DNA of 64,000 nt from Promicromonospora thailandica (GTDB taxonomy: Bacteria; Actinomycetota; Actinomycetes; Actinomycetales; Cellulomonadaceae). Under the pieces are notes generated by a model. It was not told the origin of the DNA and searched no databases. It worked only from the letters and a program-made list of their open reading frames with translations. The DNA is taken from the NCBI RefSeq assembly GCF_024171955.1, contig NZ_JAMTCS010000004.1, forward strand, positions 124,001-188,000, written 5' to 3'. Positions 2,365 to 53,273 of this stretch are shown here, one piece after another. Each line of letters opens with the position of its first letter. The stretch's first letter is position 1. The position numbers were made by a program, and so were the translations under genes.

Positions 2365-3224
2365 CTGACGACCGGTATGGCTCCGACGTGCTGTCCCCCG
2401 AGTTCCCCGGCGCGCAGCGCGGGCGGCGCCCGACGTCCCAGCCCGTGCCCGCCGAGCTCGGGCTCGTGGTCGAGGAGGTCGAGACCGGCTGGGTGGGCGC
2501 CGTCGTCCGGGTGGAGAAGTCGGGCGGCATGCACCTCGTGGTCCTGGAGGACCGGCGGGGCCGCACCCGCTCCTTCCCCCTCGGCCCGGGTTTCTGGGTG
2601 GAGGGCAAGCCCGTGGTGCTGACCGCGCCCGTGACGCAGCGCGCCCCCGCGCCGCCCGCCCGCACGGCCTCCGGTTCCGTGGCGGTGCACGGCGCCCGGG
2701 CGCGCGTCGCGCGCGGCAGCCGCATCTGGGTGGAGGGCAGGCACGACGCCGAGCTCGTCGAGAAGGTGTGGGGCGACGACCTGCGCATCGAGGGCGTCGT
2801 GGTCGAGATGCTCGACGGCGTGGACCACCTCGCCGAGCGCCTCGCGGAGTTCGGGCCCGAGCCCGGCCGCCGTGTCGGCGTGCTCGTGGACCACCTGGTC
2901 CCGGGGTCGAAGGAGCAGCGGCTGGCCGACGAGGCCCTCCGCGGGGTGCCGGCCGGCACGGTGCTGGTGCTCGGTCACCCCTACGTGGACGTGTGGCAGG
3001 CGGTCCGCGCCGAGCGCCTGGGGCTGGAGCGCTGGCCCGTGATCGAGCGGGGCACGGAGTGGAAGCTCGGCATCCTGCGGTCCCTCGGCTGGCCTGCGCA
3101 GACACAGGCGGACGTCGCCCGCGGCTGGCAGCGCATCCTCGGCACGGTCCGGGACTTCCGCGACCTCGACCCCGCCCTGCTCGGTCGGGTGGAGGAACTT
3201 ATCGATTTCGTGACCGAGTCGTGA
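2361..3224 (+). CDS. DUF3097 family protein
   Basis: This 287-residue protein starts at a GTG that overlaps the stop of the upstream regulator. It has the actinobacteria-specific DUF3097 layout: an N-terminal SH3-like beta region (GWVGAVVRVEKSGGMHLVVLEDR) and then a Toprim-like stretch around residues 120-170 (RIWVEGRHDAELVEKVWG, then VVVEMLDGVDHL and GVLVDHLVPGSKE). The EGRHDAE and DHL elements look like the acidic positions of Toprim nuclease or primase folds. Its molecular role is unknown. Genes of this family often lie near lepA, hemW and hrcA in related genomes, which fits the position here. Confidence 0.88.
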   Translation: MTDDRYGSDVLSPEFPGAQRGRRPTSQPVPAELGLVVEEVETGWVGAVVRVEKSGGMHLVVLEDRRGRTRSFPLGPGFWVEGKPVVLTAPVTQRAPAPPARTASGSVAVHGARARVARGSRIWVEGRHDAELVEKVWGDDLRIEGVVVEMLDGVDHLAERLAEFGPEPGRRVGVLVDHLVPGSKEQRLADEALRGVPAGTVLVLGHPYVDVWQAVRAERLGLERWPVIERGTEWKLGILRSLGWPAQTQADVARGWQRILGTVRDFRDLDPALLGRVEELIDFVTES

Positions 3225-28605: not shown

Positions 28606-31551
28606 CTACGCGGGGACGATGTTGACCAGGTTGGGGGCCCGGACGATGACCTTGCGCACGCCGCGCCCGTCCAGGAACTTGATCACGTTCGGCTCGGCCA
28701 GGGCCGTCGCCTCCAGGTCCTCCGCCGAGATGTCCGGCGCCACCTCGAACCGCGCGCGGACCTTGCCCTGGACCTGGACCACGCAGGTCACGGTCTCCTG
28801 GACCAGGTACTGCTCGTCCGCGGTCGGGAACGGCTCGTGCGCCAGCGACTCCTCGTGCCCCAGCCGGGACCACAGCTCCTCCGCGATGTGCGGGGCGATG
28901 GGCGCCGTCATGAGGACGAGCGGCTCCACGGCGGCGCGCGGCACGGACGACAGGCCGGTGAGGTGGTTGTTCAGCGTGATGAGCTTGGCGATCGCCGTGT
29001 TCGGCCGCATGTTCTCCATCTCGGCGCGGACGTCGGCGATGGTGCGGTGCACGATGCGCAGCGTGGCGGTGTCGGGCTCGTCGTCCGTCACCGTCAGCTC
29101 GCCCGTCTCCTCCGAGACGACGTTGCGCCACAGCCGCTGCAGGAACCGCTGTGAGCCGACGACGTCGCGCGTGTTCCAGGGGCGCGACAGGTCGAGCGGT
29201 CCCATCGACATCTCGTAGACGCGGAACGTGTCGGCGCCGTACTGCTCGTACATCTCGTCGGGCGTCACGACGTTCTTGAGCGACTTGCCCATCTTGCCGT
29301 ACTCGCGGTTGACCGGCTGGCCCTGCCACGTGTAGCCGCTCTGCTCGTCACCCTCGACCTCCGCGGCCGGCACGTACTGGCCGCGCGAGTCGGTGTACGC
29401 GTACGCCTGGATGTAGCCCTGGTTGAAGAGCTTGCCGAACGGCTCGAGGCTCGTGACGTGGCCGAGGTCGAGCAGCACCTTGTGCCAGAACCGCGCGTAC
29501 AGCAGGTGCAGCACCGCGTGCTCCACGCCGCCCACGTACAGGTCGACACCGCCTGCCGGGCCGGACGTCGCGTTGTGCTGCGGCCCCAGCCAGTACTGCT
29601 CCAGCTCGGGCAGCGCGGCCGCGCCGTTCTCGGCCGGGTCCAGGTAGCGCAGGTAGTACCAGCACGACCCGGCCCAGTTGGGCATGGTGTTGGTGTCGCG
29701 ACGGTACGTGCGCGGCCCGTCACCCAGGTCCAGGGTGACGTGCACCCACTCGTCGTTGCGGCCCAGCGGCGCCTCCGGCTCGGAGGTCGCGTCGTCCGGG
29801 TCGAAGGTGCGCGGCGCGTAGTCGGGCACGTCCGGCAGGTCGACCGGCAGCATCGCGTCGGGGATCGCCACGGGCCGGTCGTCCTCGTCCCACACGACCG
29901 GGAACGGCTCGCCCCAGTAGCGCTGCCGGCTGAACAGCCAGTCGTTGAGGCGGTAGGTCGTGGTGCCCTCGCCGATGTTCCTGCTCTCCAGCCAGGCGAT
30001 GATCCTCGCCTTGGCCTCGGCGACACCCAGGCCGTCGAGCGAGATCTCGTCGTTGGCGGAGCGCACGGCGACGCCCTCGCCCGCGTACGCGCCGGTGTGG
30101 CCCTCGGGCAGGCCGCCCTCCGGCTCGACCGTGTAGATCACGGGCAGGTCGTAGGCCTCGGCGAACGCGAAGTCGCGCTCGTCACCGCCCGGCACCGCCA
30201 TGATGGCGCCGGTGCCGTAGCCCATGAGCACGTAGTCCGCGGTGAAGACCGGCACCTGCGTGCCGTTCACGGGGTTCACCGCGAGGTGGCCGGTGAAGAC
30301 GCCGGTCTTCTTGCCTGCGTCGGCCTGGCGCTCGACCGCAGTCTTCGCGGACGCCTCGCGCCGGTAGGCGGCGACGGCCTCGACCGGGGTGTCGTACCCG
30401 CCGGTCCACGCCGAGCGCGTGCCGTCGGGCCAGGCCGCGGGGACCTCGTCGAGCAGCGGGTGCTCGGGAGCCACCACCATGAACGTGGCGCCGAACAGCG
30501 TGTCGGGGCGGGTCGTGAAGACCTCGAGGGTGCCCGCCGCACCGGCCGGGTCGCCCTCGGCGGTGCCGACGACGTCGAACCTCACGTTCGCGCCCGTCGA
30601 CCGGCCGATCCAGTTGCGCTGCATCGACTTGACCTTGTCGGGCCAGTCGATCAGCTCCAGGTCGTCCGCCAGGCGGTCGGCGTAGGCGGTGATGCGCATC
30701 TTCCACTGGCGCAGGTTGCGCTGGAACACCGGGAAGTTGCCGCGCTCGGACCGGCCGTCGGCCGTGACCTCCTCGTTGGCGAGCACGGTGCCCAGGCCGG
30801 GGCACCAGTTCACCGGGGAGGAGTCGATGTAGGCCAGGCGCTGGCCGTCGATGACGTCACGCTGCTCGAGCTCGCTGAGCCCTGCCCAGACGGCGCCGCC
30901 GGTGTTGTCGCCGTCGTGCCCGGGGACGGGCCGCGTGCCCGCGGCGAGCTCCGCGCGCAGCTCCGCGATCGGGCGGGCCCGGCCGGTGCCGGCCGACGGC
31001 CCGGGGCGCTCCGCCTCGGTGTCGTACCAGGAGTCGAAGATCTGCAGGAAGATCCACTGCGTCCAGCGCACGTACTCGGGGTCGATGGTCGCGAAGGTGC
31101 GGCGCGAGTCGTGCCCCAGGCCCAGGCGGCGCAGCTGGCGCCGCATGTTGAGGATGTTGGCCTCGGTGGTGACGCGCGGGTGCTGGCCGGTCTGGACGGC
31201 GTACTGCTCGGCGGGCAGGCCGAACGCGTCGTAGCCCAGCGCGTGCAGCACGTTGTCGCCGCGCATCCGGCGGAACCGCCCGGTCACGTCCGTGGCGATG
31301 TAGCCCAGCGGGTGGCCGACGTGCAGGCCCGCACCCGACGGGTACGGGAACATGTCCATGATGAAGTACGGGTCGCCCTGTGCCGGGCTGCCGCCCGGCC
31401 CCGTAAGTCGCCCCTGCGGGTTCGCCGCGTGGAAGGTTCCGCGCTCCTCCCAGATGTCCTGCCAGCGCAGCTCGATCTGCTGCGCGAGGGCCGGGGTGTA
31501 GCGGAAACGGGGCTCGTCCGGGGACGTGGTGCGCTCGGGTGCGTCGGGCAT
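28606..31551 (-). CDS. leuS: Leucyl-tRNA synthetase
   Basis: This class I aminoacyl-tRNA synthetase has about 981 residues. The HIGH-type motif reads [16 protein letters not shown] and the KMSKS-type motif reads KMGKSLKN. The CP1 editing domain is present ([39 protein letters not shown], whose Asp aligns the editing site). The anticodon domain and C-terminal extension ([15 protein letters not shown]) complete it. ATG 31551 (MPDAPERTT) is preferred to longer frames. I looked for a T-box leader upstream and saw none. Confidence 0.97.
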
Positions 31552-45345: not shown

Positions 45346-45876
45346 ATGGACCTCACAATCCGGCCCGCGACCGTTGCGGACGCCGCGGCCTGCGCGGACA
45401 TCTACGGCTACTACGTGCGGCACACCCACGTCAGCTTCGAGGCCGAGCCCCCGGACGCGGCCGAGATGGCGCGGCGGATCACCGCGTACTCGGCGTCCCA
45501 CGCGTGGCTGGTCGCCGAGGGCGACCCCGGCGACGTCGTCGGGTTCGCCTACGGCAGCCCCTACTCCCCGCGCGAGGCCTACCGGTGGGCCGTCGAGACC
45601 AGCGTCTACCTGGAGGCCGGACGACGGCGCACGGGCGCCGGGCGCGCCCTGTACGAGGCGCTTCTCGGGCGCCTGGCCGGACGCGGCTTCCGCCGCGCCG
45701 TCGCCGGCCTGGCCCTGCCGAACGACGCGAGCCGCGGCCTGCACGCGGCCCTCGGGTTCGAGGAGGTCGGCACGCTGCACCGGATCGGCTGGAAGCACGG
45801 GCAGTGGCACGACGTGCTGCGCCTGCAGAAGGACCTCGCACCGGGGCTCGGCGCGGCCCCGCCGTCGCCCGTGTGA
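45346..45876 (+). CDS. GNAT acetyltransferase, phosphinothricin-acetyltransferase-like (1)
   Basis: This 176-residue protein is of the PAT/Bar subfamily. It has TIRPATVADAAACADIYGYYV, SFEAEPPDAAEMARRI, VETSVYLEAGRRRTGAGRALYEALL (acetyl-CoA pyrophosphate loop) and the diagnostic GWKHGQWHDVLRLQ near the end. Family members acetylate phosphinothricin or methionine sulfoximine-like amines. It is a paralogue of the next gene. It starts with ATG 45346 after a G-rich site. Confidence 0.9.
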   Translation: MDLTIRPATVADAAACADIYGYYVRHTHVSFEAEPPDAAEMARRITAYSASHAWLVAEGDPGDVVGFAYGSPYSPREAYRWAVETSVYLEAGRRRTGAGRALYEALLGRLAGRGFRRAVAGLALPNDASRGLHAALGFEEVGTLHRIGWKHGQWHDVLRLQKDLAPGLGAAPPSPV

Positions 45877-45958
45877 CCTGCATCTACCCGTTCGACCCAC
45901 CGCCGTCAATTCCGCGCTGCGATCATCGGCCCCCTCCGGAGCGGAGAAGAATCCGTGC

Positions 45959-46594
45959 ATGGACCGCATCGTCCGCGTCGCGACACCAGACGACGCCGCA
46001 GCCTGCGCCGGGATCTACGCCCCCTTCGTGGCCGACTCGGCGGCGACCTTCGAGACCACCCCGCCCGACGCCCGCGAGATGACCCGCCGCATCGAGCGGT
46101 TCTTCGGACGGGAGACCTGGCTCGTGCTGGAGACCGACGGTGTGGTCGCGGGCTTCGCCTACGCCAAGCCGTTCGCCGACCGGCCCACGTTCCGCTGGAC
46201 GCTGGAGACCAACGTCTACGTGGCCACGGACCACCAGCGCCAGGGCGCCGGCCGCGCGCTGTACGACGCGCTCCTGGAGCGCCTCGCCCGCCGCGGCTAC
46301 CACCGCGTCGTCGCCAGCATCGTGCTGCCGAACGACCCGGCCGTCGCCCTGCACGAGGCGGCCGGGTTCCAGCGCGCCGGGTCGTTCGAGCGCATCGGCT
46401 GGAAGCACGGCCAGTGGCACGACGCCGTGATGTTCCAGCGCGACCTCGTCCCGGACGACGGCATCACGCCCGGCAACCGCACGGCCGACGCCGAGCTGCC
46501 CAGCCTGCTCACGCCCGAGCCGCTGGAGGTCACGCGCACCCCCCTGGTGCGGCCGCACCCCGCCGAGGAGCTGGTGGCCTACTTCGGCGACTGA
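45959..46594 (+). CDS. GNAT acetyltransferase, phosphinothricin-acetyltransferase-like (2)
   Basis: This 211-residue paralogue of the preceding product shares VRVATPDDAAACAGIYAPFV, VYVATDHQRQGAGRALYDALL and GWKHGQWHDAVMFQRDL. It carries an extra C-terminal segment of about 40 residues (LTPEPLEVTRTPLVRPHPAEELVAYFGD) that is absent from copy 1. ATG 45959 is preceded by GGAG. The pair probably arose by tandem duplication and then diverged in substrate. Confidence 0.9.
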   Translation: MDRIVRVATPDDAAACAGIYAPFVADSAATFETTPPDAREMTRRIERFFGRETWLVLETDGVVAGFAYAKPFADRPTFRWTLETNVYVATDHQRQGAGRALYDALLERLARRGYHRVVASIVLPNDPAVALHEAAGFQRAGSFERIGWKHGQWHDAVMFQRDLVPDDGITPGNRTADAELPSLLTPEPLEVTRTPLVRPHPAEELVAYFGD

Positions 46595-46642: not shown

Positions 46643-47848
46643 ATGAGCATCACCGTGCGTCCCGTCGGGTACGACGACCAGCCCGCCTACACGCGCCTCG
46701 GCGGAGAGGCGTTCGGCGTGCCCGACGGCGGGCGCGCCGTCCCCTCCCGCGAGGAGTGGGCCGCGGCGGGCTTCCGCGAGTGGGGCGCGTTCGACGGCGA
46801 CGAGCTGACCGCCCGCCTGCGGGTCTACGGCTTCACGTCGTGGTTCCACGGCGCGCCGGTGTCCACCGCGGGGATCGCGGGCGTCGCGGTCGAGCCGGAG
46901 CGGCGGGGCTCCGGGCACCTGGCGCGACTCTTCGCGGCCGCTCTGACCGAGGCCCGCGAGGGCGGCGAGACCGTCTCGACCCTCTACCCCACCGCGCCCG
47001 GCATCTACCGCCGCCTCGGCTACGAGGTGATCGGCTCGTTCGACGACGTGGACGTGCCCCTGCAGAACCTCGCCCGCGTGCCCGCGCCCGACGGCGTCGT
47101 GACCCGCCGGGCTGGGGTGGCCGACTTCGACGCGGTCGTCGGCGTCCACCGGGCCTGGGCCGCGCGGCAGAACGGGCCGATCTCGCGCGCCGAGAAGCCG
47201 TTCTGGACGCCACCGGAGAAGTTCTTCGCGGACTACACGGGCGTCACGCTGGCCGTCGACGCCGCGGGCGAGGTGGTGGGCTTCGCGAGCTGGATCCGCG
47301 GGGAGGGCTACACGCCCGCGACCGCGGTCATGGAGGTCGACGACCTCATCGCTCTGACCCCCGACGCGGCGCGCGCCCTGTGGCGCACGATCGGCAGCTT
47401 CTCGACGGTGGTGGGCACGGCACGCGTGTCGACGTCGGGCCTGGACCCCGCCTGGCTGGTGCTGCCCGACCTGACCTCGACCGTGCACGCGGCACACCCC
47501 TACATGCTGCGGATCCTGGACGTGGCCGGGGCGCTCGGCGGCATCGAGTCGCCGCTGGAGGGTGCCCGCGTCCCGTTCGCGGTGCGCGGCCCGGCCGACC
47601 TCGCCGGCGCGTGGACGCTCAGCGTGGCGGACGGCGTCACGCACCTCGAGCACGACCCGGTCGCCGTCGATGACGCGCACCACGAGCGCCCGGTGCTCAC
47701 CGCGAACGGGCTGGCGCTGCTCTACGCGGGTGCGCAGTCGGCGGCGAACCTGCGGCTCGCGGGCCACCTGGCGGGCCCGGACGGGTACGACGCCGTCCTC
47801 GGCGCGCTGTTCGCCGGGCGGCAGGTGCACGTGCGCGACTACTTCTGA
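46643..47848 (+). CDS. Eis-like GNAT acetyltransferase
   Basis: This 401-residue protein has the three-part Eis architecture. The N-terminal GNAT domain contains IAGVAVEPERRGSGHLARLFAAAL, the acetyl-CoA loop with R-x-x-G-x-G/A. A second, degenerate GNAT domain follows, and then a C-terminal SCP2-like domain ending QVHVRDYF, with the terminal carboxylate that Eis uses in catalysis. Eis enzymes acetylate aminoglycosides or protein lysines at several positions. It lies 48 bases after the second PAT-like gene, in the same direction. Confidence 0.9.
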   Translation: MSITVRPVGYDDQPAYTRLGGEAFGVPDGGRAVPSREEWAAAGFREWGAFDGDELTARLRVYGFTSWFHGAPVSTAGIAGVAVEPERRGSGHLARLFAAALTEAREGGETVSTLYPTAPGIYRRLGYEVIGSFDDVDVPLQNLARVPAPDGVVTRRAGVADFDAVVGVHRAWAARQNGPISRAEKPFWTPPEKFFADYTGVTLAVDAAGEVVGFASWIRGEGYTPATAVMEVDDLIALTPDAARALWRTIGSFSTVVGTARVSTSGLDPAWLVLPDLTSTVHAAHPYMLRILDVAGALGGIESPLEGARVPFAVRGPADLAGAWTLSVADGVTHLEHDPVAVDDAHHERPVLTANGLALLYAGAQSAANLRLAGHLAGPDGYDAVLGALFAGRQVHVRDYF

Positions 47849-47906
47849 CCCGTTCTGACCACGTCGCGCCACGGACCGTCGCACCGCCGGGGCACATACT
47901 GGGCGC

Positions 47907-48125
47907 GTGAACATCCCCGTCGCCTGGTCCGTCGTGCTGATCCTCACCGCCGCCTGGAACCTGCTCATCTGGCCCCGGTTCTGGCAGCGGATCGCCGCCG
48001 ACCCCCGCTCGCGCGACGCCGACGGCCGCGCGACCCGGTTCCGCACGGTCCACGCGGTGCTCATCGGGGTCTCGCTGGCGCTGGCCCTGGCGGTCGGCGT
48101 CCTGGGCGTCCTCACCCTGTTCTGA
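47907..48125 (+). CDS. SCO4848-family small membrane protein
   Basis: This 72-residue protein has two hydrophobic helices (VAWSVVLILTAAWNLLIWPRFW and VHAVLIGVSLALALAVGVLGVLTLF) joined by a basic loop (RSRDADGRATRF). The WPRFWQRIAADPRSRD stretch is typical of the family. The function is unknown. It starts with GTG 47907. Its stop lies just before the AGATCT repeat array. Confidence 0.88.
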   Translation: MNIPVAWSVVLILTAAWNLLIWPRFWQRIAADPRSRDADGRATRFRTVHAVLIGVSLALALAVGVLGVLTLF

Positions 48126-48140
48126 CCTCTCCCGCCCGGG

Positions 48141-48543
48141 CGCCGAGATCTGGCGCCGCGCACCCACGCCCGACGCTGCCCACTGAGACCTGGCGCCATG
48201 CAGCCGCGCCCGGCGCTGCCTGCTGAGATCTGGCGCCATGCAGCCGAGATCTGGTGTCTACGCCGAGATCTGGTGGCGCACTGCCAGATCTCGGCTCAAC
48301 AACCAGATGTCGACGGCGAACCACCAGATCTCAGCGCATGGGGACACCGAGATCTGGTGGCCGCGCCACTCGCGCCCGCGCCTGCCCTGCCCTGCCGCGC
48401 CGAGATCTGGCGCTCGGCAGCCGAGATCTGGTGTCCACGTCCAGATCTGGCAGTGCGCCACCAGATCTCGGCTCAACCGCCAGATCTCGACGGCGAACCA
48501 CCAGATCTCAGCGCGCCCGCGCGGCAGCGGCACCAGATCTCCC
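48141..48543. repeat. Gene-free array of AGATCT palindrome repeats in both orientations
   Basis: Fourteen exact AGATCT hexamers start at 48146, 48226, 48247, 48266, 48286, 48326, 48350, 48403, 48424, 48443, 48463, 48482, 48503 and 48535, with degenerate ones at 48186 and 48305. Each sits in a larger motif (CCGAGATCTGG or its reverse complement), and most steps are 19-21 bp. A block of about 97 bp (48241-48337) recurs at 48418-48514 with about 90% identity. Upstream, 48145-48184 and 48185-48224 form a 40-bp tandem repeat. This explains the otherwise empty 461 bases between the SCO4848-like gene and the TetR gene. Stem-loops such as 48262-48273 with 48284-48295 (12 bp, 10-base loop) are perfect. 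Confidence 0.95.
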
Positions 48544-48570
48544 GAGCGCCGGCATTATTCGGTTGGCGGC

Positions 48571-48588
48571 ATACCTGGAGGTAGGTAT
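48571..48588. promoter_or_regulatory. TetR-type operator candidate overlapping the ribosome-binding site
   Basis: ATACCTGGAGGTAGGTAT is an inverted repeat (ATACCT/AGGTAT arms) whose centre is the GGAGG of the TetR gene and whose right arm enters its ATG. The placement suggests autorepression. Confidence 0.65.
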
Positions 48589-49153
48589 GGTGACGCCCAT
48601 GAACACCGCCGCCGCACGCGACCGGCTCGTCGACGCCGCGCAGGACCTGTTCGCCGCCCAGGGCGTCGGCGCCACGAGCCCGCGCGCGGTGCTGGCGGCG
48701 TCCGGTGTCGGCCAGGGCAGCCTGTACCACCACTTCCCCACGAAGCACGACCTCGCGGTGGCCGCCGTCGGCGCCACGGTGGACGACGCGCTCGCGCGCG
48801 CCTTCCGCACCCTGGACAGCGGCTCCCCCGCCCTCGAGCGCGTGATCGCCTACCTCGAGCGGCCGCGCGACGCGCTGGCGGGCTGCCGGATCGGCCGGCA
48901 CACGGCCGACCAGGCCGTGATGGACGACGACGGCCTGCGCGACGTGCTCACCGCCTACTTCGTGCGGCTGCTGGCGGCGCTCACCACGATCTTCCGCGAG
49001 ACGGGCCTGCCCGACGACGTCGCCCGCGACCGCGCGCACGCCGCCCTCGCGATCATCCAGGGCGGGTACGTCCTGGCCCGCGCCACGCAGGACCCCGACG
49101 CGCTCACCGCAGCGGTGCGCGGTTTCGTCGGCCTGCTGGACCGGCACCAATGA
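48587..49153 (+). CDS. TetR/AcrR family transcriptional regulator
   Basis: This is a protein of about 188 residues. The N-terminal helix-turn-helix is clear: LVDAAQDLFAAQGVGATSPRAVLAASGVGQGSLYHHFPTKHDLAVAAV. The C-terminal helical domain (GCRIGRHTADQAV, HAALAIIQGGYVLARA) is the TetR_C LmrA/YxaF-like type. ATG 48587 is favoured because GGAGG lies five bases upstream; ATG 48599 would be too far. An 18-base palindrome covers the start. The PNPOx-like gene follows after 43 bases and may be its target or partner. Confidence 0.92.
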   Translation: MVTPMNTAAARDRLVDAAQDLFAAQGVGATSPRAVLAASGVGQGSLYHHFPTKHDLAVAAVGATVDDALARAFRTLDSGSPALERVIAYLERPRDALAGCRIGRHTADQAVMDDDGLRDVLTAYFVRLLAALTTIFRETGLPDDVARDRAHAALAIIQGGYVLARATQDPDALTAAVRGFVGLLDRHQ

Positions 49154-53188: not shown

Positions 53189-53215
53189 CGTTCGCTGTCC
53201 CCCTCGGGGGGTCGT

Positions 53216-53271
53216 CGAGAACGACCTGAGGTACCGGATCGCTGCAGGTCCGGTACCTCAGGTCGTTCTCG
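53216..53271. terminator. 23-bp perfect hairpin between convergent genes
   Basis: Arms 53216-53238 and 53249-53271 are perfectly complementary around a 10-base loop. The hairpin lies between the mqo stop and the stop of the minus-strand condensation-fold gene. It is unusually long for a terminator and shares a 12-mer at its right edge with the AGATCT array. A smaller hairpin (53199-53210) precedes it. Confidence 0.75.
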
Positions 53272-53273
53272 GC

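Follow-up and report, generated by a model that had tools for sequence, protein, structure and literature searches.

What is a dense, gene-free array of AGATCT palindromes doing between a gene of the SCO4848 family and a gene for a TetR family regulator? Across the window (the whole stretch of DNA analyzed here, 64 kb in length), we observe 17 exact copies of AGATCT, 14 of them within 48146-48540 and three as single copies at 30042, 31038, and 38119, with whole-window shuffles giving an expectation of 2.54 (largest 7). Two near copies (AGACCT at 48186 and AGATGT at 48305) bring the array to 16 sites, whose neighbor spacings are 40, 40, 21, 19, 20, 19, 21, 24, 53, 21, 19, 20, 19, 21, and 32 bp, 10 of the 15 being 19 to 21. 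This confirms the earlier note, which had counted 14 exact and two near copies in about 400 bp, mostly 19 to 21 bp apart, with only scattered single copies elsewhere in the window. Its description of the array as gene-free also holds: our own gene caller (a codon-model script, not a standard program) places no gene between 48126 and 48586, and the open reading frames listed there are mechanical. An Rfam search of 47500-49000 returned nothing above the gathering score and eight matches at an E value of up to 1 (seven miRNA families and one sRNA family). Elsewhere in the window, two neighboring genes (45346-46594), also found in G001 and G007, have products that are 49 to 50% identical to each other across species and likely represent a tandem duplication.

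The array begins with two outlying sites at 40-bp steps, followed by a block of six sites; after an extra site (48350) come the second block and, last, an outer site (48535). The palindromes are embedded in CCGAGATCTGG or its reverse complement, as had been stated, and their orientation is moreover ordered, with each block carrying three GAGATCTGG rightward and then three leftward at 21-19-20-19-21 bp (Table 1). The third site of block B (48443) reads CCAGATCTGG in both directions. The similarity between the directly duplicated blocks (86% identity) extends across 116 bp at an offset of 177 bp. The inner ten bases at 48274-48283 and 48451-48460 are reverse complements of each other despite the direct duplication, as if the center had been flipped. 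The array folds far more stably than shuffled sequences (z = −14.8), as is expected of any such palindrome.

Table 1. Features of the AGATCT array and its surroundings (window coordinates)
Feature	Position	Strand	Remarks
Whole AGATCT array	48143..48543	.	14 exact and 2 near sites
Outlying forward site	48143..48153	+	
Near copy CTGAGACCTGG	48183..48193	+	40 bp to neighbor on either side
Block A	48222..48337	.	Six sites at 21-19-20-19-21, one decayed (AGATGT at 48305)
Core of block A	48265..48292	.	GAGATCTGG-N10-CCAGATCTC, exact (G000:C4:172265-172292)
Extra forward site between blocks	48347..48357	+	
Block B	48399..48514	.	Direct duplicate of block A, 86% identical; core inner ten bases reverse-complemented
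Core of block B	48442..48469	.	One mismatch (G000:C4:172442-172469)
Outer reverse site	48533..48543	-	32 bp past last block B site
Upstream gene, SCO4848 family membrane protein, 72 aa	47907..48125	+	Stop-to-array gap of 17 bases
Conserved inverted repeat, likely TetR operator	48570..48589	.	Separate from array
TetR family regulator	48599..49153	+	Start is the authors' choice; in-frame ATG also at 48587

The earlier note had proposed a search of the host genome and its relatives for such clusters, and this search reveals a dispersed family with 26 cores, the array being one of them. The window's genome, with 5.38 Mb in 24 contigs, contains 21 exact copies of the core GAGATCTGG-N10-CCAGATCTC and five with one mismatch; there are no cores with two mismatches and three with three mismatches. 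The same genome holds 144 copies of GAGATCTGGNG, 134 of them within 450 bp of a core, and the 10 copies outside clusters appear chance-like, given that 7.5 are expected genome-wide from base composition. The pattern AGATCTGG-N27..31-CCAGATCT is present in the window's genome and in 4/12 other genomes of the genus, and in 0/46 genomes of other genera, with 26 cores in the window's genome versus three pattern loci each in G001 and G007. An exact core scan of 84,980 species yielded 26 stretches, 24 of which are in Promicromonospora (citrea ATCC 15908, AC04, and MEB111). The assignment of the window to this genus is based on the kinship listed between its genome and these. The two matches outside the genus (L137, a Dokdonia bin, and L139, a Planctomycetaceae bin) were rejected as chance, being lone pairs without a nearby flanking site. 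G008 has at least 21 cores, these having been fetched from 34 of 48 forward matches, and the exact scan shows more on other contigs. In a four-gene tree, the carriers do not form one clade: P. citrea is sister to the window's genome, the partners of AC04 and MEB111 are one non-carrier (support 0.82) and three non-carriers (1.00), respectively, and G001 has no firm place.

In four sister species, the basic element is a 66-bp near-palindrome with four inward-pointing GAGATCTGG sites at 19-20-19 bp, and 28 of the 34 elements at the relatives' fetched loci have exactly this layout with at most one mismatch per site. At least one further outward site is found in 24/26 elements of the window's genome versus 3/34 in the relatives (at 21 to 32 bp); the fetched-locus counts of site layout, outer spacing, linker similarity, and arm pairing, here and below, exclude the window itself. 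In our view, the array is somewhat probably a duplicated and outward-extended copy of a palindromic insertion element, whose gene-end copies have been recruited as two-way terminator hairpins without a U-tract.

Position with respect to genes is strongly skewed. With genes called by our own script, the convergent, tandem, and divergent arrangements among 49 gene-flanked element regions in five genomes number 23, 22, and 4, versus 17, 85, and 43, respectively, among 145 control gaps (at least 30 bp, from the same loci; Fisher, P = 7.5e-7); this orientation count does not cover the in-gene elements L054, L076, and L088, the elements L089, L093, and L103, which have a neighboring gene on just one side, L059-L065, or the window. 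In tandem regions, the element lies closer to the upstream stop than to the downstream start in 19/22 cases (the exceptions being L047, by one base, L091, and L102), and at L082 and L098 it occupies most of the stop-to-stop gap (81 and 78 bp). Many cores of the window's genome lie 70 to 200 bp from a stop codon. No TTTT was observed within 12 nt past the element ends (0/107). The placement of copies beside stop codons does not favor the partition or nucleoid role that had been suggested for the array. As to whether the clusters lie at conserved or variable sites, the element is absent from 10/13 TetR loci, and 11 loci at orthologous places, some with a single visible neighbor, are common to two or three species (window/L074/L084, L046/L103, L051/L098, L053/L095, L058/L099, L067/L080 with two elements, L075/L081, L076/L088 within a gene, L077/L091, L078/L096, and L083/L086). 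L057 and L102 also have a gene in common, but its distance from the elements is too great for them to count as a pair.

Furthermore, the same gene-end places hold other palindromes in other species. Downstream of two orthologous genes, we observe a palindrome scoring at least 14 within 220 nt of the stop in 23/25 sequences (G010, with a cut gene, was left out of the second slot), with low scores for G009 (11) at one slot and G012 (7) at the other. Only 4 of these 23 palindromes are AGATCT elements; the rest belong, by eye, to several unrelated types, some of them common to a few species. A convergent partner lies within 75 to 213 nt in 12/12 sequences of the second slot. The first slot is not always convergent, since its partner is close (66 to 109 nt) in 8/13 only, more than 1.1 kb off in four, and not found in one. 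In convergent gaps from random stretches, palindrome scores reach at least 20 in 12/30 cases in the genus versus 0/28 in other genera (medians, 16 and 6), and tandem and divergent gaps show no such genus difference (medians, 6 to 7).

A second palindrome word, TCGAGCTTGTCGAG, has 1 to 37 copies in the eight genomes of the genus without the AGATCT pattern and none in the five with it; among 150 genomes drawn from the family, nine carry it, eight of them from this genus. This mutual exclusion of the two families across 13 genomes is only suggestive, since few switches are involved, decayed copies escape exact patterns, and the choice of the word came after the slots had been viewed. Another long convergent-gap palindrome (CGAGAACGACCTGAGGTACC...) lies in the window at 53189-53273, and its type is also present at L204:13176-13274 and in the L051 slot of G001. 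At L060:2026-2136 and L217:5606-5709, convergent gaps contain palindromes in which a unit of about 16 bp (GAGGTAGAAC- or GAGGTAGGAC-like) is repeated, so that the AGATCT family is not the sole one with repeated words in its arms. In addition, GAGGTTGCTTCGCT and its complement mark a further palindrome family in convergent gaps of the window's genome (L047:756-880, L053:1632-1721, and L061:807-1003); the comparison of gaps that yielded this and the 16-bp-unit families had the L059-L065 gaps among its controls.

Taken together, the enrichment past stop codons, the occupation of the same slots by other palindromes, and the absence of a T-run point to use of the element as an I-shaped two-way terminator hairpin. 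According to this scheme, the element, which can insert at new places, including in frame inside genes, is found mostly at gene ends; its 66-bp core, transcribed from either side, would form a hairpin with up to 32 bp that may terminate transcription in both directions without a U-tract and also shield mRNA 3' ends. We infer both that transcription is terminated there and that an inserting element was recruited to this end. Of the features by which U-less terminators are recognized, a stable hairpin just past stop codons and the lack of a U-tract are present, but three fetched elements lie inside predicted genes. I-shaped terminators are described in parts of one review as lying within 50 bp of the stop codon, and the 70- to 200-bp distance of many cores in the window's genome goes beyond this limit and speaks against termination (PMC12288462). 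The same source indicates that U-less termination is itself disputed, citing one paper titled as needing a U-tract and one titled as not (PMC12288462). The 4/49 divergent regions also speak against a reading based on gene ends.

Three elements lie within open reading frames (L076:3046-3111, L088:3008-3072, and L054:2982-3047). L076 (AC04) and L088 (P. citrea) encode LacI-family regulators by Pfam (PF00356 and PF13377), in which the element is in frame, free of stops, and lengthens a loop of the sugar-binding domain by about 22 codons. It is present in 2/10 orthologues and missing from eight, including the one in the window's genome, to which P. citrea is sister. The length of this loop varies across all orthologues, which hides the insertion borders and any target duplications, and either two gains or several losses could have produced the distribution. 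L054, from the window's genome, is a gene for a small protein with no Pfam match, again with the element in frame, and 2/11 orthologues carry the element, the P. citrea copy being decayed with its outer sites kept and nine lacking it. That these three frames are gene miscalls was considered and rejected, since two are LacI-family genes and 10 other genomes contain relatives of the third. Presence and absence inside two kinds of genes indicate that the element is a true insertion, its 66 bp being readable as 22 codons. The earlier note had named a match to a known mobile or coding element as grounds against its reading; in-frame insertion in two kinds of genes partly provides this, although no known family matches.

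These insertions, the dispersed copies, and the presence or absence at the TetR locus are also in line with a palindromic element of purely selfish nature (REP-, MITE-, or RPE-like) that is simply tolerated at gene ends and in variable protein loops, as is the disparity in copy number between the window's genome and G001 or G007. Moreover, a strong terminator inside the LacI-family or small-protein gene would truncate the product unless ribosomes hold the hairpin open, which argues against termination. Tolerance alone, however, does not predict that unrelated long palindromes occupy the same gene-end slots elsewhere, and the 11 loci common to several species also count against a purely selfish nature. 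The Y1 transposase PF01797 was found in 0/13 genomes (control genomes positive, 5/14); a RAYT-driven REP was rejected on this ground, and the absence weakens the selfish reading, which we consider unlikely.

The sites added outward in the window's species are mostly 21, 32, or 42 bp apart, corresponding to two, three, and four helical turns. Counted arm by arm (n = 60), outer spacings are 21 bp in 30 cases, 42 bp in 8, and 32 bp in 8, with a resultant at 10.5 bp of 0.84, and of 0.70 for the 30 spacings other than 21 bp (Rayleigh, P of about 4e-7). Periods of 9.5 to 11 fit the latter about equally (0.66 to 0.72) and related copies are not independent, so that the phasing claim is limited to whole turns. 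Off-phase spacings of 25, 27, 46, and 60 bp, as well as 40 bp in the window, are also present; the 52-bp spacing is about five turns and thus not off phase. Linkers of 42 bp have a similarity of 0.79 within a locus (7 pairs) and of 0.39 between loci versus 0.33 when shuffled, whereas between-locus values are 0.47 for 32-bp and 0.53 for 21-bp linkers, each versus 0.36. The 42-bp linkers of separate loci are thus barely alike, which suggests that this length was reached more than once. Sites are constant across copies while linkers vary. At L051/L098, L053/L095, and L058/L099, the window's genome has at least six sites where P. citrea has four, indicating that sites are gained or lost in place.

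Pairing between the two arms is restricted to the inner part of the element. Based on 54 elements (without L076 and L079, with 20-20-19 and 20-20-18 layouts, L084, which has no core, and L093, at a contig end), inner arms match in 395/540 columns versus 342 (standard deviation, 8) when permuted within genomes, with 0/20000 permutations as high, and the inner linkers of the two arms therefore change together. Outer linkers do not pair (113/204 versus 110 permuted), nor does the core center pair better than permuted (72/120 versus 77; 72/100 versus 73), and arm mismatches in tandem regions show no G-U preference on the transcribed strand (44 versus 40, with 52 others). The hairpin does not account for the phased outer sites with their non-pairing linkers; a DNA-binding protein may. 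The lack of a wobble preference, the constant AGATCTGG, and the phased outer sites argue against a purely RNA-based reading and would be explained by a DNA-bound protein.

Such a dedicated protein, binding the sites cooperatively on one face of the helix, could block polymerase in both directions, insulate supercoiling, or organize the chromosome, and it is compatible with the terminator explanation. Constant sites at phased distances, with a 42-bp length seemingly reached more than once and 32-bp linkers somewhat alike, fit this idea, but the breadth of fitting periods among non-independent copies, the off-phase spacings, and the 16-bp units of the other palindrome family (about one and a half turns) do not, and bound copies inside two genes would hinder the transcription of those genes. 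We regard protein binding as unlikely. Of the earlier suggestion of cooperative binding, the phasing is real and recurs genome-wide, and a protein may bind there cooperatively. A more elaborate proposal, distinctly improbable in our estimate, would have each genome write its gene-end palindromes in its own dominant word, with AGATCTGG as a protein-read roadblock carried by the inserting element and phased sites added in parallel; a dedicated protein on one DNA face would then halt converging polymerases, and one mobile palindrome family would displace another across many loci.

A DNA uptake signal like those of Neisseria and Haemophilus, arranged in inverted pairs where genes end, is very improbable: passages on paired uptake signals describe the same layout (PMC1852404), but the present word is barely above chance outside its clusters, and known signals have hundreds of copies. 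At the TetR locus, read in 13/13 genomes, the interval from the SCO4848-family gene to the TetR gene is 465 nt long and holds the array in the window's genome, contains a four-site element in G001 and a degenerate element with outer sites kept in G007, and spans 39 to 98 nt without an element in the other 10 genomes, several of which have a short GC hairpin. The degenerate TetR-locus element of MEB111 (L084, around 3068-3112) has lost two inner sites and kept its long outer stem. The inverted repeat CATACCTGGAGGTAGGTATG at the start of the TetR gene is exact in 12/13 genomes, with one change in P. citrea, and is likely the operator of this gene. That the array is itself an operator of the adjacent TetR gene, as the earlier note allowed from its palindromic sites upstream of that gene, is hardly credible, with 10/13 orthologues lacking it and retaining the other inverted repeat and other copies lying beside unrelated genes.

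Returning to the recruited insertion element as the preferred explanation, we observe that each of its ingredients (in-frame palindromic elements, REPs, U-less hairpins, and paired short terminator words) is known. The Rickettsia palindromic elements (RPE), as described in passages of PMC10969869, also lie both between genes and in frame within genes, but they are about 150 bp long and nearly half of those first reported are in open reading frames, whereas the present elements are 66 bp, mostly intergenic, phased, and from other bacteria; the likeness is one of description and of in-frame insertion into genes that lack the element in orthologues. The pneumococcal SPRITE, a repeat family likened there to rho-independent terminators, can be set beside them by description only (PMC10969869). 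REP and BIME sequences are dispersed extragenic palindromes, with arrays of alternating orientation (as outlined in PMC2817692); unlike them, the present element occurs without a Y1 transposase in 13 genomes, has a fixed four-site layout, and is also found inside genes. I-shaped terminators likewise have a stable stem without a U-tract past stop codons (in the parts of PMC12288462 and PMC8269248 that describe them), but here one sequence family carries constant words at fixed spacing, and termination is something that we only infer. The uptake-signal terminators of Neisseria and Pasteurellaceae also build a hairpin from inverted pairs of a short constant word, but the present word is not spread over the genome, and its stems are far above the modal 11 bp that is given for theirs (PMC1852404). 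Hairpin clusters described as terminators similarly place multiple hairpins past a stop codon (in passages of PMC8355165), whereas the present family consists of ordered palindromes and not of any set of hairpins. Titles and abstract openings yielded no published account of AGATCT or TCGAGCTTGTCGAG palindrome families, and the passages of a REP survey do not mention Promicromonospora. The new variation is a family confined to the genus, with outward growth by whole turns, with copies both within genes and at their ends, and with other palindromes taking its place.

These results present the gene-end palindromes of the genus as a turnover system, in which the place stays and the palindrome family differs by species, with at least one such family being an insertion element that also enters reading frames. 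Should transcription indeed end at the gene-end copies, mobile palindromes would be a source of terminators, and a protein reading the phased sites would mean that bacteria may possess roadblock terminators that work in both directions.
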